Of a DNA stretch of 64,000 nt, positions 28,763-36,370 are shown piece by piece. Location of the stretch: the NCBI RefSeq assembly GCF_014297365.1, contig NZ_JACOQD010000001.1, forward strand, positions 1,054,001 through 1,118,000, given 5' to 3'. The DNA comes from Winogradskyella echinorum (lineage in GTDB: Bacteria > Bacteroidota > Bacteroidia > Flavobacteriales > Flavobacteriaceae). Under the pieces are notes generated by a model. That model was not told where the DNA came from. It saw only the letters and a program-made list of their open reading frames with translations, and ran no database searches. Position numbers and translations under genes: made by a program. The first letter of the stretch is position 1. Each line of letters begins with the position of its first letter.

Positions 28763-29767
28763 TTAACTGAATTCTATTTCGTAATTCAACCTATTAGATA
28801 AAGATTTTAATTGCGTTTTAGACTTAAAAATATTTGAAAAAAGGGTTTTGCCCCAGCCTATTTTTTTAGAGTATTGATTAAAGTTTTCTTCTCTCCAATT
28901 AAAACCTTCTTTCCAAAATTTGTTTGGAGACACATAACAAAACGTGTAATCAAAAATAAAGCTAGATTGATTCTCTGAGTCTAAACCAAAAATAGTGTTT
29001 GGTGCCATAAGCGTAATGTTATTGCTGGCACAAGTTGTTCTTATATATTGAATAAGACTTGGATAATCATCAATTAATGTTGAAATGTCAAAATCATTAT
29101 ATTCTGTATTTCCTATTTTTTGAATTGGTCTTATCTGCAAAATATCAAAACTTTTAGCATCAAAATGATTGAAAAACTCACTTAATTCATAAAAATTATC
29201 TTTATTGAAAGTGTAATTAATTCTCACTTTAAAATCGTAATTCGCTTTGAGTTTCTTAAAAGCATTAAACGCATTGTGAAATTTTTCGTAGCTGGCTTTT
29301 TTCATAAAGCCTTCATAGCTTTCTTTTGTTACACCATGCAGCGAAATTGTAAACTCATTTAAACCAGCCTTTAATAGTGCTTCAATTTTTTCTTCGGTTA
29401 ATAAGTTGGCATTAGTGGTTATAGAAATATAAGGCACATTATATTGTTTACCGAGCGCAACAATTTTTTCAAGATTTTTATACAATGTAGGTTCTGTTCC
29501 ACAGCCTATTTGAAGTTTTAATGCACGTTTAAAAACAGCCTTTGCTACCAGATCTAAATCTTCATCTTTAAACTGACCTTTTAACGTTTTTACAAAATCA
29601 GCATCGGTAAAATAGCACATTTTACAACGCAAGTTACAAGCCATTACAGGATCTAAATTAACAGCGATATAGCGCTTATTAAATTTATGCAACAGATACA
29701 GACCAAAAAACTTAATTCTATGACTTTTTATCTTTCTGTTTAGTTGTAAAAGCTTATAAATATTCAT
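28763..29767 (-). CDS. radical SAM protein of unknown substrate
   Basis: 334 residues. The [4Fe-4S] motif CxxxCxxC is C44-NLR-C48-KM-C51-YF, in a typical first strand (NLDPVMACNLRC). GCGTEPTLY, followed by SITTNANLLTEEKI, is the SAM-binding GGE-like region. The C-terminal part lacks a clear SPASM cysteine set (only isolated Cys in TFCYVSPNKFW), so auxiliary clusters are doubtful. It overlaps trhO by one base, suggesting a shared operon; a tRNA-modification role would fit but is unproven. Confidence 0.85.
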   Translation of the reverse strand: MNIYKLLQLNRKIKSHRIKFFGLYLLHKFNKRYIAVNLDPVMACNLRCKMCYFTDADFVKTLKGQFKDEDLDLVAKAVFKRALKLQIGCGTEPTLYKNLEKIVALGKQYNVPYISITTNANLLTEEKIEALLKAGLNEFTISLHGVTKESYEGFMKKASYEKFHNAFNAFKKLKANYDFKVRINYTFNKDNFYELSEFFNHFDAKSFDILQIRPIQKIGNTEYNDFDISTLIDDYPSLIQYIRTTCASNNITLMAPNTIFGLDSENQSSFIFDYTFCYVSPNKFWKEGFNWREENFNQYSKKIGWGKTLFSNIFKSKTQLKSLSNRLNYEIEFS

Positions 29768-30837
29768 TAAATAGTTTTGTTCAAGGTATCAAAAATATTG
29801 CGTAAATCTTTTTTGTAGGGTAAATGATCTGCTCGTCCTTTTTTAAAAATATCATTACTATTGCCCTGACCTTTTCGTAATGCTTTTTGCTCATCGTGTG
29901 GTAATCTGTTTATTTCCATACAATTTGAAGAACAACAATTTTCCATCTTCTCTTTACATTTATCGCACTGAATAAATAATAAATGACAAGCTTCATTAGC
30001 GCAATTAGTATGCATATCAGCAGGCTCACCACATTGATGGCAGTTGGCTATAACATCGTCTGAGATACGCTCTGATCGTCTTTGATCGAATACAAAGTTT
30101 TTACCAACAAACTTGTTTTCCAAACCTTCAGCTTCTATTTGTCTTACGTAGTTTATAATACCACCTTCTAACTGAAACACATTTTTAAAACCTTTATGCT
30201 TATAGTAAGCACTTGCTTTTTCACAGCGAATACCACCAGTGCAGTACATTACTAATTTTTTATCTTCTTTGTGTTCTCTTAAATCTTCCTCTATTAAATC
30301 TAAAGATTCTCTAAAAGTATCTACATCTGGTGTAATGGCATTTTTAAAATGACCGATTTCACTTTCGTAATGATTACGCATGTCTACCAAAACAGTATTA
30401 GGATCTTCAATTAATTCATTGAATTTTTCAGCATTAACATGCACACCTTTGTTTGTAACATCAAACGAGGAGTCATTAAGTCCATCCGCTACAATTTTGT
30501 TTCTAACCTTAACTTTAAGCTTTAAAAATGCAAAATTATCATGCTCTATAGCAATGTTAAGTCTAACGTTTTCTAAAAAAGTAATGGTATCTAAATGATT
30601 TTTAAAAGCCTCGAAATTTTCAGCTGGTACAGATAGTTGAGCATTAATGCCTTCGTTAGCAACGTATATTCTACCTAGAACGTCTTGTTGATCCCAAGCT
30701 AAAAATAAATGATTTCTAAAAATTTCTGTGTTGCCAATTTTGGCGTACTTGTAGAAAGAGATTGTTAAGCGTTCTTTTCCAGCTTTTTCAATAAGTTCTG
30801 CTCTTTCCTTAGCACTTAAGTTATTGTACAGTTGCAT
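29767..30837 (-). CDS. trhO: tRNA uridine(34) hydroxylase (rhodanese-like)
   Basis: 356 residues of the TrhO/YceA family, which hydroxylates U34 of certain tRNAs in an O2-dependent step toward 5-carboxymethoxyuridine. N-terminal UPF0176 domain (RIYVANEGINAQLSVP), central rhodanese domain with the active-site loop MYCTGGIRCEKASAY (C199), and a C-terminal Cys-rich zinc-like region (CHQCGEPADMHTNC..., CDKCKEKMENCCSSNC). It precedes the radical SAM gene by a one-base overlap. Confidence 0.92.
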   Translation of the reverse strand: MQLYNNLSAKERAELIEKAGKERLTISFYKYAKIGNTEIFRNHLFLAWDQQDVLGRIYVANEGINAQLSVPAENFEAFKNHLDTITFLENVRLNIAIEHDNFAFLKLKVKVRNKIVADGLNDSSFDVTNKGVHVNAEKFNELIEDPNTVLVDMRNHYESEIGHFKNAITPDVDTFRESLDLIEEDLREHKEDKKLVMYCTGGIRCEKASAYYKHKGFKNVFQLEGGIINYVRQIEAEGLENKFVGKNFVFDQRRSERISDDVIANCHQCGEPADMHTNCANEACHLLFIQCDKCKEKMENCCSSNCMEINRLPHDEQKALRKGQGNSNDIFKKGRADHLPYKKDLRNIFDTLNKTI

Positions 30838-31254: not shown

Positions 31255-31282
31255 GTAGATGCTAAAAGTGTAAAATGGTTGC
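31255..31282 (-). promoter_or_regulatory. ECF-type promoter motif, copy 3
   Basis: On the minus strand GCAACC (31277-31282) and CATCT (31257-31261) are separated by 15 bases with the spacer core TTTTACACTTTT. It matches the copies at 32961 and 34100. Transcription would run left, away from susD. Confidence 0.5.
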
Positions 31283-31301
31283 GTGATAAAATTGAAAAAA
31301 A

Positions 31302-32777
31302 TTAATTTTGTTCATTTATAAATGGGTTGTTCTCAATTTCTGATTGTGGAATTTCAAAAGTTAAACGTTCGTCATTATGGGGAAATGATGCACCAATAAA
31401 ATCTTGATAATAGTGGTTTTGACCATTGACACCAGTAAATCTTCCATTGCGCTTAAGTGCTAAATATGCCTTCCCCTCACCCCAAAATTCAATACGCGTT
31501 TGTAAATAGATTTCGTCTTCTAATGCAACACCTGATAAACTGTTTAGGTAATTTACATTTGGTAATCGTTGAGTTAAAACTTCCGAAAGAGCCATCCTCG
31601 CAGCCACATCTTGACCTAATTTAGCTAAACATTCTGCTTTTAATAAGTGAAGTTCTGCTATTCTCATATATACATAATCACTCTGTGTACTTTCTGTTGT
31701 TCCTAAACGAACTCTATCCGAATCATAAAATTTATAAAGTGGTTGAAGATAGTTAACACCTGATTCATTAGAAAACTGTTCTTTACGTACATCCTCTATA
31801 GGTATTTCATCATACAAATTTTGATCTATTGCTTTTGAATCACCAACAGCTGCATAGCTGTATGAAAAGTAATCAACTTGTCCCCACCACGATATTAAAC
31901 CAATATTCATGTCGTAAGTAAGATCTACACCCCAAATCCAACCTGGTGTTTCTACATTGTTAAACCCTCCAACGACTTCTGTTTCGTCCATTACAGTAGC
32001 TCCACTATTAACAATAACTTCATCGCATAATTGTACCACCTCATTAAGACGAGACACATCTCTTTGCGCTGCAATGGCATATGCCAAAATAGCTTTAGCC
32101 ATAAATTCGTTAACCTGTTTTTTAGAAGGCCTTTGATAGTTTTTTAATAAATCAATAGCTTTATTTAAATCATTTTCAATTAATTGAAACACTTCTGCTG
32201 TGGTAGATTTTGGTGCATAATCACTACTCGATTCTCTGTAAATAGGCAGTATTAGTGCTTCAGGATCATAATCGTTAGCCATGTATTGCGTGAGATAAAA
32301 ATAAGAGTGAGCGCGCATAGTTAAGGCTTGTCCAAAAAAATGACGGTCTGCATCGTCTTGTGGATCCGCAGTATCACCTCCATATAAATCTAAAATAGTA
32401 TTTGCAATTTCAATAATACTATAGTATTGTATCCAAACTTTGTAGTTATTTGAATTGGTAAAATCTAGAGTGCCAAAATAATCTTGATTAACAGAAGGAG
32501 CTAATCCTCCTGAACCAACAAATTCATACGACTTCGCCATATCACCAATTAATAAATCGGAAAATATATCATACGTTTTATGTCCAAAATCATCATGTTC
32601 TCCTGTACCACCCGAACCTGGAGTATACATCTTTGCGTATAAATCCTCTATTAATTGTGATGCAACTTCTGGTTCAACATTAATTTCTAAGTTATCATCT
32701 TCTATATCCTCTGAGCAGCCATAAAATGTAAATACTAATCCCAAAATCATTGATAATTTGTGTAAAATATTTTTCAT
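31302..32777 (-). CDS. RagB/SusD-family outer-membrane lipoprotein, without SusC partner
   Basis: 491 residues. Lipobox TFYGC with Cys21, followed by acidic residues (SEDIEDD), consistent with the Bacteroidetes signal for surface-exposed lipoproteins. The TPR-like helical N-terminal half (RAHSYFYLTQYMANDYDP, STTAEVFQLIENDLNKAIDLL) and the closing IPQSEIENNP are typical of SusD. SusD normally sits directly after a susC TonB receptor gene; here the upstream neighbour is divergent recA and no susC is in the window. A GCAACC-N15-CATCT motif lies 184 bases upstream, so sigma control is plausible. Ligand unknown. Confidence 0.9.
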   Translation of the reverse strand: MKNILHKLSMILGLVFTFYGCSEDIEDDNLEINVEPEVASQLIEDLYAKMYTPGSGGTGEHDDFGHKTYDIFSDLLIGDMAKSYEFVGSGGLAPSVNQDYFGTLDFTNSNNYKVWIQYYSIIEIANTILDLYGGDTADPQDDADRHFFGQALTMRAHSYFYLTQYMANDYDPEALILPIYRESSSDYAPKSTTAEVFQLIENDLNKAIDLLKNYQRPSKKQVNEFMAKAILAYAIAAQRDVSRLNEVVQLCDEVIVNSGATVMDETEVVGGFNNVETPGWIWGVDLTYDMNIGLISWWGQVDYFSYSYAAVGDSKAIDQNLYDEIPIEDVRKEQFSNESGVNYLQPLYKFYDSDRVRLGTTESTQSDYVYMRIAELHLLKAECLAKLGQDVAARMALSEVLTQRLPNVNYLNSLSGVALEDEIYLQTRIEFWGEGKAYLALKRNGRFTGVNGQNHYYQDFIGASFPHNDERLTFEIPQSEIENNPFINEQN

Positions 32778-32960: not shown

Positions 32961-32987
32961 AAGATGTAAAAAGTGTAAAATGGTTGC
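32961..32987 (-). promoter_or_regulatory. ECF-type promoter motif, copy 2 (susD)
   Basis: On the minus strand GCAACC (32982-32987) and CATCT (32962-32966) are separated by 15 bases, spacer ATTTTACACTTTTTA. It is the best promoter candidate upstream of the SusD gene; the implied leader is ~175 bases and includes a five-codon ATG frame at 32919-32936. Confidence 0.5.
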
Positions 32988-33009
32988 GTAATAAAATTAA
33001 AATAAGTGG

Positions 33010-34089: not shown

Positions 34090-34099
34090 ATTTTTAGAC

Positions 34100-34127
34100 G
34101 CAACCCTTTTGCACTTTTTGCATCTAC
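34100..34127 (+). promoter_or_regulatory. ECF-type promoter motif, copy 1 (sigma operon)
   Basis: GCAACC (34100-34105) and CATCT (34121-34125) with a 15-base spacer (CTTTTGCACTTTTTG). The AAC of the upstream box is typical of ECF -35 elements. Placed just after the recA terminator and 125 bases before the sigma gene, it suggests self-transcription of the sigma operon. Confidence 0.55.
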
Positions 34128-34252: not shown

Positions 34253-34798
34253 GTGAGTTTAGACCGACTCATTAAAAATTGTATTAATCAAGATGCTGAG
34301 GCACAAAGTCAATTATACAAGCAATATGCAAGTAAATTATTTTCGCTTTGTCTCAAGTATTCTAAAAACTATGCAGAAGCAGAGGACAATCTGCATGATG
34401 CATTTATAACTGTATTTAGTAAAATAGATCAGTATAACAATAAAGGTTCTTTTGAAGGTTGGTTAAAACGAATTGCAATTAACACATCATTGCAACGCTA
34501 CAGAGAAGATGTTGGAGTTTATGATATAGTAAACGAAGGTAATATTGAAGATGTTTCTGTAGATATAGACGATGAGAATGTAAGTCTTGATTTTTTATTA
34601 CAAATTATTCAAGAATTGCCAGACAGATATAGATTGGTTTTCAATTTGTATGTCTTAGACGGATACTCTCATGTAGAAATTAGCGAATTAATTAATATTT
34701 CAACAGGCACCTCAAAATCTAACTTAGCACGTGCTAGGCTGATTTTAAAAGATAAAATAGAAAGTTACAATGCGAGTCCAAATTCGCAATCATTATAA
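34253..34798 (+). CDS. ECF-type RNA polymerase sigma factor
   Basis: 181 residues. Sigma-70 region 2 covers ~20-90 (YKQYASKLFSLCLKYSKNYAEAEDNLHDAFITVF) with the -10 recognition helix SFEGWLKRIAINTSLQRYR; region 4 covers ~118-172 (ELPDRYRLVFNLYVLDGYSHVEISEL, then STGTSKSNLARAR). No regions 1.1 or 3, so it is an ECF-type factor. The start is GTG at 34253, since the ATG two bases earlier is immediately followed by TGA in its frame. It is three bases upstream of the anti-sigma/barrel gene. Target promoters are inferred to be the GCAACC-N15-CATCT sites. Confidence 0.92.
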   Translation: MSLDRLIKNCINQDAEAQSQLYKQYASKLFSLCLKYSKNYAEAEDNLHDAFITVFSKIDQYNNKGSFEGWLKRIAINTSLQRYREDVGVYDIVNEGNIEDVSVDIDDENVSLDFLLQIIQELPDRYRLVFNLYVLDGYSHVEISELINISTGTSKSNLARARLILKDKIESYNASPNSQSL

Positions 34799-34801
34799 CC
34801 A

Positions 34802-36370
34802 ATGAACAGTAAAAAGAACATAGACAGACTTTTTCAAGAAAAGTTTAAGGATTTTGAAGCAGTACCTAATGATGCTGTTTGGAATCGTATAAACGAAAGT
34901 CTTCCTAACAAAAAGAAAAAGCGTAGAGTTATTGCGCTTTGGTGGCAAATAGGTGGAGTTGCTGCAGTTATTGCTTTACTCCTAACTATTGGTGTGTCGG
35001 TTTTTAATTCTGATGGAAACAGCAAGCAAGACCTACCAATTGTAGATATAGATAAAACCGAATCTATTAAAGATGATGGTAATTTAAAGACTCCAACAAG
35101 CACAAATCAAAAAGATATTAATACTGTTAATGATAAAGTTAATCTTGTTGATTCTGATAAAAACAAAAGCTTAATTAAGGATAATAACGAAAGCAATGTG
35201 CCTCGAAAAGACAATGCTTCTAAACAATTAACAAGTCCTAATAAGACCAAGCTAAATACTGTTGCTAATAATTCTAATGGCAATAAAAAAGAGAATGAAA
35301 ACACCACAGCTTCTCAAAAGCGTAGTGCTTTATCAACAAATCCAAATCAAACGAACAGTACTAAAGTTGCATTAAATACTAAAAATACTGAGCAAAATAA
35401 TAAGACTAATCTTGTAAATGAAACTGAAATAAAATCAGTTCTTAAAAAGTCGGTAGAAGAAAATAATACTGCTGTTGCAGATAATACCTCATCAAAAAAA
35501 TCGGATTCTGAAACTAAAGGAACTGGCATAAAAGATATTGATGAACTAGAAACAAAAAATTCTATAATAGAAACACCAGAAAAGCAATCTATTGTCGATG
35601 CTATTGCAGAACAGACTAAAGATATTGATGAAAAAGAAGAAGATAAACAAAGCAGGTGGAGCATTGCGCCCAATGTTGCGCCTGTTTATTTCGGTTCTTT
35701 AGGTGAAGGTTCACCAATTAACGATCAATTTAACGGTAACACAAAAGCAGGAGACATTAACATGAGTTATGGTATCGCTGGTTCTTATGCTGTGACTGAC
35801 AAAATAAAAATACGTGCTGGTGTTAACCGCGTACATCTTAATCATGTGACTTCAGATGTTATTACCTTCACAGGTGGCGAAGTGTTATTACGCGGTGAGA
35901 ATACGGATATAAATAATTTAGAATATGAGGATGGCATGAATACAGTTTCTTTTATGCATGCAAACAAATATTTTCTTATGTCTAAACCAAATAATGATGA
36001 TGTTAAGCAAGCCGGAGATATTGATCAACGATTTGGTTTTATTGAAGTGCCTTTAGAGATAGAATACAAGCTTGTAGATAAGAAGTTTGGAGTTAATCTT
36101 ATAGGAGGTTTTAGCACCTTCTTTTTAAGTGATAATGAAATCTATGCTGATATAGATGGAAATTCAACATTAATTGGTAAAGCTAATAATATTAACTCAA
36201 CAAGCTTTAGTGCTAATCTTGGTTTAGGTATGGACTACAGCTTATCGAAACAATGGAATATCAATCTTGAACCAACGTTCAAGTATCAAATAAATACATT
36301 CAATAATACGTCTGGTAATTTTAAGCCTTTCTTTATTGGTGTATATACAGGATTAAGTTTTAAGTTTTAG
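34802..36370 (+). CDS. predicted dual-membrane-spanning anti-sigma factor (N-terminal anti-sigma, C-terminal beta-barrel)
   Basis: 522 residues in four parts. Residues 1-42 are cytoplasmic and charged (DRLFQEKFKDFEAVPNDAVW), like anti-sigma peptides of this family. Residues ~43-68 are one transmembrane helix. Residues ~70-285 are a disordered Asn/Lys/Thr/Ser-rich linker long enough to cross the periplasm. Residues ~286-522 are an outer-membrane beta-barrel (WSIAPNVAPVYFG..., ending YTGLSFKF with a terminal aromatic). No signal peptidase site is seen. This matches the Dma (dual membrane-spanning anti-sigma) proteins described in Bacteroides thetaiotaomicron. It would hold the sigma factor inactive and release it on an outer-membrane cue (inference). 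Confidence 0.8.
   Translation: MNSKKNIDRLFQEKFKDFEAVPNDAVWNRINESLPNKKKKRRVIALWWQIGGVAAVIALLLTIGVSVFNSDGNSKQDLPIVDIDKTESIKDDGNLKTPTSTNQKDINTVNDKVNLVDSDKNKSLIKDNNESNVPRKDNASKQLTSPNKTKLNTVANNSNGNKKENENTTASQKRSALSTNPNQTNSTKVALNTKNTEQNNKTNLVNETEIKSVLKKSVEENNTAVADNTSSKKSDSETKGTGIKDIDELETKNSIIETPEKQSIVDAIAEQTKDIDEKEEDKQSRWSIAPNVAPVYFGSLGEGSPINDQFNGNTKAGDINMSYGIAGSYAVTDKIKIRAGVNRVHLNHVTSDVITFTGGEVLLRGENTDINNLEYEDGMNTVSFMHANKYFLMSKPNNDDVKQAGDIDQRFGFIEVPLEIEYKLVDKKFGVNLIGGFSTFFLSDNEIYADIDGNSTLIGKANNINSTSFSANLGLGMDYSLSKQWNINLEPTFKYQINTFNNTSGNFKPFFIGVYTGLSFKF

Follow-up and report, generated by a model that had tools for sequence, protein, structure and literature searches.

A flavobacterial branch of the Dma/Reo kind of sigma/anti-sigma system, with a predicted promoter and surface regulon

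The Dma1 and Dma2 proteins of Bacteroides thetaiotaomicron, each encoded beside the gene of an extracytoplasmic function (ECF) sigma factor (Das1 and Das2), carry a long disordered tether that leads to a C-terminal barrel. The sections of PMC13088901 available to us report Dma proteins solely from Bacteroidota, describe an effect of dma2 deletion on vesiculation that depends on das2, and report that the vesiculation effect of Dma1 needs a further protein, whose family is NigD_N; they also describe Dma3, in which sigma factor and barrel lie on one chain. An independent example from Phocaeicola vulgatus was described by Evans 2022 (PMC9308784). In the EcfO-Reo systems of P. vulgatus and Bacteroides fragilis the anti-sigma factor is likewise described as reaching from the cytoplasm to the surface with a C-terminal barrel, and the regulon as small, including NigD lipoproteins, with the sigma gene itself upregulated upon induction (PMC9308784, PMC13114119). 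In P. vulgatus lacking a working anti-sigma gene the regulon is reported to be on, and a toxin to induce it (PMC9308784). Here we analyze a stretch of 64,000 nucleotides (nt) from Winogradskyella echinorum (contig NZ_JACOQD010000001.1, positions 1,054,001 to 1,118,000; hereafter the window), in which an ECF sigma gene near recA is directly followed by a gene for a protein with the same domain order as Dma1 and Dma2. Profile comparisons and a sigma factor tree support assigning this flavobacterial pair to the Dma/Reo kind of sigma/anti-sigma system. As this kind of system is already known, what is new here is its flavobacterial branch, the promoter of that branch, a predicted surface regulon and a set of split relatives.

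The two open reading frames (ORFs) lie on the forward strand at 34253-34798 (181 residues, GTG start) and 34802-36370 (522 residues), with positions, strand and lengths just as a first-pass annotation made from the sequence had recorded them. The first encodes an ECF sigma factor with sigma-70 regions 2 and 4 (Pfam PF04542, 1.7e-14; PF08281, 1.8e-14). The second, predicted to be a Dma-type dual-membrane-spanning anti-sigma factor, recovers only barrel matches below the Pfam cut-off (PF13505, E 2.8e-5; PF13568, E 1.2e-4), with PF13505 found at E<=0.01 in 57 of 66 aligned family members, and a search of solved structures with the profile of the whole protein returned nothing meaningful. An AlphaFold2 model computed from the window protein and 65 homologues (66 sequences) supports a trans-envelope architecture, in which the chain would pass from the cytoplasm through the inner membrane and periplasm into the outer membrane. 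Residues 1-45 (34802-34936) form a predicted cytoplasmic two-helix anti-sigma module (helices 5-16 and 24-33) together with a basic KKKKRR stretch, and residues 46-68 (34937-35005) a single predicted inner-membrane helix with a Kyte-Doolittle peak of 2.48 at residue 50. Residues 69-283 (35006-35650) would be a disordered periplasmic tether; the predicted local distance difference test (pLDDT) score lies below 50 at 69-205, 221-262 and 274-281, mostly around 30 along the tether, and the composition of residues 70-283 is dominated by Asn (15.0%), Lys (14.5%), Thr (11.2%) and Ser (10.3%). The tether measures about 215 residues in the window protein and 149-293 (median 208) in 95 homologues, when estimated as protein length minus 306 with the homologues L002, L027 and L028 left out. 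Residues 284-522 (35651-36367) are predicted to form an eight-stranded outer-membrane barrel ending in KF, the model having eight long strands between residues 286 and 521, mostly with pLDDT of about 90. Foldseek places OmpA first among matches to this barrel (E 2.6e-7; target template modelling (TM) score 0.70), and VIA-align 2 superimposes it on chains of OmpA, NspA, OmpW and OprF with Z 15.6-17.3 over 131-171 residues in entries from crystals, nanobody complexes and cross-linking, and with lower scores in those from NMR; the NspA match reaches Z 17.3 and 3.1 A over 151 residues. Thus the single inner-membrane helix, the disordered linker of about 215 residues and the C-terminal barrel ending in Phe that the first-pass annotation had proposed are all recovered, and the prediction of the full protein that it had named as a check does contain the transmembrane barrel. 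It had further described the N-terminus as a charged cytoplasmic region; the location holds, but the region is a conserved two-helix module rather than a mere charged patch, with P22, W27 and I30, like several glycines of the barrel, invariant across the 66 sequences.

To compare this protein with its gut relatives we located the latter through their genomes. A NigD_N search matched six of 198 genomes of the class, four of them in one family (f25), as well as a Bacteroides ihuae control, and we infer that this family is Bacteroidaceae. The sigma profile of the window family recovers 22 loci in 11 of 17 f25 genomes; in 13 of these an anti-sigma gene that encodes module, helix and barrel comes next after the sigma gene, five encode sigma and barrel on a single chain, and four show neither. 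Profile comparison by hhalign relates the N-terminal modules of the window family and of a set of 11 relatives taken to be Bacteroidaceae at 98.3% (E 1.7e-14) and the barrels at 98.1% (E 6.6e-14), against 0.1-0.2% for mismatched domains and 1.2% for an unrelated small outer-membrane protein; when whole proteins are compared the barrel alone aligns (98.4%). The Dma likeness therefore extends to homology of both end domains, as judged from these relatives and not from the B. thetaiotaomicron sequences themselves. A tree of 135 sigma factors places 101 rows, those of fused, split, Dma3-like and other relatives, on one starred branch (95/96). The branch includes sigma factors encoded next to Dma-like genes in the presumed Bacteroidaceae genomes, and contains none of the 25 other sigma rows of the W. 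echinorum genome; three of these branch off immediately outside it, together with six rows of another type, and 22 lie farther off. (Dropped from the tree were L066, a same-genus orthologue; L245, which overlaps L206; and five own-genome loci, namely L038, L040 and L032, whose window, L002 and L062 systems were already represented, and the over-long ORFs L047 and L060.) Within the branch the 33 flavobacterial fused factors form a starred group (99/96) that does not stand as sister to the f25 group (100/84), which suggests that the window pair is of the same kind as Dma/Reo but on a branch of its own. The Dma architecture claimed in the first-pass annotation is accordingly supported by the homology of module and barrel and by the common sigma clade. 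Two f25 loci (L178, L180) have a NigD_N match as the divergent neighbor of sigma, and by eye a similar divergent lipoprotein gene is present at L175, L176 and L177 and a same-strand one at L182 and L185, an arrangement that agrees with the EcfO-Reo/nigD picture as far as PMC9308784 and PMC13114119 present it. The regions between sigma and nigD-like genes at L175-L178 carry, by eye, TACTGCA-type repeats, a possible EcfO/Das promoter or operator.

The interaction of the two window proteins can be approached through their gene layout. The distance from sigma stop to anti-sigma start is -4 to +3 nt in 77 of 79 related loci (L174, which has no upstream sequence, is excluded here and from the upstream-lipoprotein count below), and the two genes share a frame in the window and in 16 of the 79, so that the sigma stop can be read through and one chain folded. 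We folded this read-through chain with 63 rows (17 paired, 23 sigma-only and 23 N-terminus-only). Four of five models agree (mean pLDDT 79-83), and the block means over anti-sigma residues ~8-37 rise to 93, 94 and 85 with sigma, against 55-68 without it. The model contains only two strand segments, sigma 102-105, which falls in the linker joining regions 2 and 4, and anti-sigma 3-6; as it has no other strands, these two must pair with each other. Its eight top PDB hits are all sigma chains solved together with an anti-sigma partner (SigW/RsiW, sigma-E/RseA, AlgU/MucA). Query TM scores are 0.38-0.43 for SigW/RsiW, CnrH/CnrY and RpoE/NepR versus 0.22-0.31 for ECF sigma chains on RNA polymerase. 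This comparison agrees with an inhibited sigma factor without proving one. The first-pass annotation had expected residues 1-42 to touch sigma region 4: a contact between the N-terminus and sigma is indeed predicted, and it includes the region 2-4 linker.

Further evidence comes from the region upstream of the operon, which carries a predicted sigma-specific promoter, CGCAACC-N15-CATCT, at 34099-34125 on the forward strand. We compared it across the best 80 of at least 489 relatives found in a scan of named genomes: CGCAACC-N15-YATCT with invariant spacing precedes the operon in 78, the misses being L149 and L174. Of the 30 loci with a region-4 sigma match that exceeds the cut-off in the W. 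echinorum genome, one, that of the window, has the strict motif within 400 nt upstream. The own genome has eight strict sites, or ten with relaxed spacing, versus none in a reversed control; 25 genomes of the genus have 142 sites versus one in the control, with a sigma-operon site, assigned by position, in all 25; and 60 genomes of 60 genera of the family have 141 versus one, the motif being present in 46. A literature search found neither a flavobacterial barrel-type anti-sigma factor nor this promoter, though most subscription journals lay outside its scope and the absence is unproven.

The remaining sites outline a predicted regulon. After leaving out 24 sigma-operon sites we tabulated 129 distinct sites of the genus, of which 101 have an ORF starting within 330 nt. 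By a crude test 50 of these ORFs are secreted or membrane-like and 40 lipoprotein-like, ten are a rhodanese-like gene and one is the sigma gene; that is, 90 of the 101 sites precede predicted secreted, membrane or lipoprotein genes. The excess of lipoproteins is the firm part of this result, because the same test labels 22 of 57 window ORFs as secreted or membrane proteins and only four as lipoproteins (26 together). The largest target clusters are a SusC-like receptor (16 sites), the lipoprotein encoded upstream of sigma in most relatives (11) and the rhodanese-like gene (10), followed by a small outer-membrane protein and a lipoprotein of ~230 residues (8 each). As far as tested, the lipoproteins predicted as targets belong to families other than those of EcfO-Reo. 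The window holds three of the own-genome sites; recA lies between two of them, and the third precedes the rhodanese-like gene. The second, found by pattern search of the genome, is at 32962-32988 on the reverse strand and reads towards a downstream SusD-like gene (31302-32777, reverse strand; PF14322 and PF07980 over cut-off), 185 nt from it. The third, from the same kind of search, is at 31257-31283 on the reverse strand, 420 nt before a UPF0176/rhodanese protein gene (29767-30837, reverse strand; PF17773, PF12368 and PF00581 over cut-off), whose product we take to be TrhO-like. Both genes are predicted regulon members, the latter also from the site upstream of it in relatives, which stands 272-325 nt away in the cluster of ten and 335-510 nt away in others of the genus. 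The two near-identical motif copies at 31257-31283 and 32962-32988 flank the SusD-like gene, a layout that would result if a gene had entered between the rhodanese-like gene and the promoter serving it in relatives.

Beyond the genus the system is widespread in flavobacteria. Among the matches listed, Winogradskyella and Flavobacteriales bacterium ALC-1 (76% identity) supply the closest named relatives of the anti-sigma protein. A full-length homologue is present in all 25 genus genomes, and a search with the N-terminal module matched 71 of 296 genomes of the phylum, 64 of them among the 73 of the same class or closer and seven, weakly, among the rest (205 unlisted misses were assigned to other classes from table order). 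The first-pass annotation had suspected a wider class, and its spread in flavobacteria is borne out; such a class is not new, since Dma proteins had already been described as confined to Bacteroidota (PMC13088901, in the portion available). The neighborhood is conserved along with the protein: of the 80 loci, 78 have the sigma gene immediately before the anti-sigma gene, recA lies upstream in 77, and in 73 a convergent acyltransferase-like gene follows, some of the misses being contig ends. None of 79 loci has ATG as the aligned sigma start codon, which is TTG in 43 of them and GTG in 36 (GTG also in the window), and the true start is uncertain in some loci because an ATG sits three codons upstream there. 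A lipoprotein of ~137 residues is encoded just upstream of sigma in 77 of 79 loci, and is missing at that place in the window, in ALC-1 (L118) and in L149. No Pfam family scored over cut-off for the two members tested, and a search for it elsewhere in the own genome gave no match, a weak negative as the search had no positive control. Its identity as a NigD homologue was rejected, as hhalign gave 53% over the lipobox only; unlike in the Dma1/Dma2 setting, the usual neighbor of the window family is a different small lipoprotein. For the window pair itself Pfam yielded neither a FecR-type nor an RseA/ZAS-type anti-sigma domain up to E 1. We accordingly rule out an RseA/ZAS-type identity, and also TonB/FecR cell-surface signaling, the flanking genes being recA and the acyltransferase-like gene.

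A sigma gene stands next to the module in 107 locus entries, which include a few overlaps and are not a random sample, and these entries show several layouts. In 51 the barrel is part of the anti-sigma chain, 29 encode a short anti-sigma protein and, after it, a barrel on a gene of its own, and 27 end in other ways. The own genome combines the recA-linked fused pair with a second fused pair (L002:85-2556), which has a different small lipoprotein gene directly 5' of sigma and no strict promoter motif, and a split pair (L062:1793-4318) that encodes sigma, a 261-residue membrane anti-sigma factor and a 368-residue signal-peptide barrel protein with a charged, probably helical stretch. The split layout in general comprises sigma, a membrane anti-sigma factor of ~250 residues and a separate signal-peptide barrel gene. 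Its module is homologous to that of the fused type (99.5% in hhalign) and 19 of the 29 split entries have, within the 760 nt searched, a GCAACC promoter with one more spacer base. Unlike in the window pair, the barrel is on its own gene and is not recognizably the same barrel; the idea that the two are the same was rejected at 15.9% in the profile comparison, so that a history in which one ancestral protein was simply split or joined is not shown. As the fused label needs four changes on the sigma tree, this history was not one clean event. Some split relatives carry CGTCT, which recalls the SM6 promoters of Flavobacterium psychrophilum (PMC9723704), and a link between the two is conceivable; unlike for the window promoter, the available account of SM6 gives no -35 sequence, and names type IX secretion system genes among its targets. 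Five Dma3-like proteins (L183, L184, L189, L191, L192), whose sigma domains fall in the same larger clade, run from sigma straight into the membrane helix without the two-helix module, and are thus membrane-tethered sigma factors; the window sigma, by contrast, is a separate protein. At L212, L223, L230 and L237 the same module heads proteins of 748-907 residues that do not match the barrel profiles used, so there may be other sensor ends beyond barrels.

Several results weigh against reading the window pair as a Dma/Reo-like switch with its own promoter. The promoter is predicted to belong to this sigma factor by its position, its conservation and the absence of the strict form before the other 29 sigma loci only, and a looser pattern did match one further own-genome sigma locus (L037). 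The motif is absent from 14 of the 60 family genomes. With up to 760 nt searched, it was found upstream of just 15 of the 51 fused entries, not upstream of the second fused pair of the own genome, and in none of 13 fused entries from genomes taken to be Bacteroidaceae, so that a promoter shared with the latter was rejected. In the regulon, 28 of the 129 sites have no ORF of at least 70 residues starting within 330 nt; several of these have an ORF start called slightly upstream, several the rhodanese-like gene at 335-510 nt, and a few little sequence past the site. The 101 sites with an ORF come from related genomes and are not independent. On the structural side, the predicted TM (pTM) score of the full anti-sigma protein is 0.48, one of the five read-through models is poor (mean pLDDT 60.3), and the sigma/anti-sigma model is a single folded chain rather than a complex prediction. 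The query TM scores to sigma-E/RseA and AlgU/MucA are just 0.30-0.32, and SigG1, solved without an anti-sigma partner, reaches 0.40-0.43. Finally, NigD_N (PF12667) has no match in the own genome. NigD targets are not defining for the wider family, however, as Dma2 is reported not to raise nigD1 (PMC13088901, as available).

Taking these points together, we consider it likely that the window encodes a pair of the Dma/Reo kind, in which the module holds the sigma factor until a disturbance frees it to transcribe its own operon and surface genes behind CGCAACC-N15-YATCT. The two-helix module is predicted to keep sigma inactive at the inner membrane. A disturbance of the barrel or of the outer membrane around it, whether from damage to the envelope, failure of assembly or binding of a ligand, would then lead to destruction of the anti-sigma factor or to a change in its state, and the freed sigma factor would transcribe its own operon and about 7-9 further sites, chiefly serving lipoproteins, a small outer-membrane protein, SusC/SusD-type proteins and the rhodanese-like enzyme. 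The behavior of the published relatives, as far as PMC9308784 and PMC13088901 present it, supports this logic.

How the signal would cross the envelope is less certain. The first-pass annotation had held that one polypeptide connects outer membrane and sigma factor without a protease cascade; this lack is unsupported, for the evidence does not separate direct transmission from regulated proteolysis. It is a tenable alternative, which we rate at slightly less than an even chance, that failure of barrel assembly is the signal and is read by regulated intramembrane proteolysis, with a periplasmic cut followed by a cut in the membrane helix, as in RseA, so that the polypeptide would be a substrate and not a wire. 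The modelled sigma is most like RsiW-bound SigW, the P. vulgatus relative is induced by a toxin with envelope stress proposed as the signal by its authors (PMC9308784, in the part available), and the near-contiguous genes would tie each burst of sigma to a newly assembled barrel. There is no protease gene among the neighbors recA, sigma, anti-sigma and acyltransferase, and this alternative competes with direct transmission alone, not with the family assignment. We favor assembly failure or damage acting via proteolysis because a long, length-variable disordered tether makes a poor mechanical wire. The same property counts against the barrel being a receptor for an external ligand such as a glycan that signals through the tether by conformational change or tension: ~215 disordered residues, ranging from 149 to 293 in homologues, seem ill suited to the transfer of force or shape, and the small barrel is OmpA- and NspA-like. 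This possibility, which appears unlikely, draws on the glycan signal hypothesized for Dma2 by its authors (PMC13088901, as available) and on the SusC- and SusD-like genes within the predicted regulon.

It is more improbable still that the promoter belongs to another sigma factor and that the pair is merely one of its targets. The genome offers 30 region-4 sigma matches, the assignment is by comparison alone, and the motif is missing before many fused relatives in the wider sample; against this stand the occurrence of the strict motif at a single sigma locus, its exact spacing in nearly all of the best-matching loci and the one-base-longer variant before the split relatives. That the hydrophobic segment is a cleaved signal peptide of an ordinary OmpA-like protein, its N-terminus being a by-product, would fit the predicted outer-membrane barrel that follows, but is hardly credible given the conserved module of ~45 residues before the segment, the basic residues just ahead of the helix, the sharing of this module with barrel-less split anti-sigma proteins and with the relatives taken to be Bacteroidaceae, and the adjacent sigma gene in 78 of 80 loci.

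The Dma/Reo-like assignment adds a conserved locus of marine Flavobacteriaceae to a kind of system described from gut Bacteroidales. To what the available sections of the gut-system papers offer, it contributes a promoter sequence of fixed spacing and a predicted regulon, both open to reporter fusions. The split relatives with a separate barrel provide natural controls for the importance of the physical tether. We can only tentatively propose, as a doubtful extension, that the flavobacterial branch surveys the outer membrane throughout the family, that it has been passed on next to recA, and that it uses a promoter code of its own to control a compact regulon, made up of lipoproteins, outer-membrane proteins, SusC/SusD-type proteins and a rhodanese of the tRNA-modifying type. 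In such a system the tether would make each new anti-sigma molecule a test of assembly, the lipoprotein encoded first in the operon would join in sensing, and the core would have been coupled to at least two unlike barrels, fused or separate. To our knowledge there is no settled sigma-E counterpart in flavobacteria; if the predicted regulon is right, the system would be a candidate for their general outer-membrane stress response.

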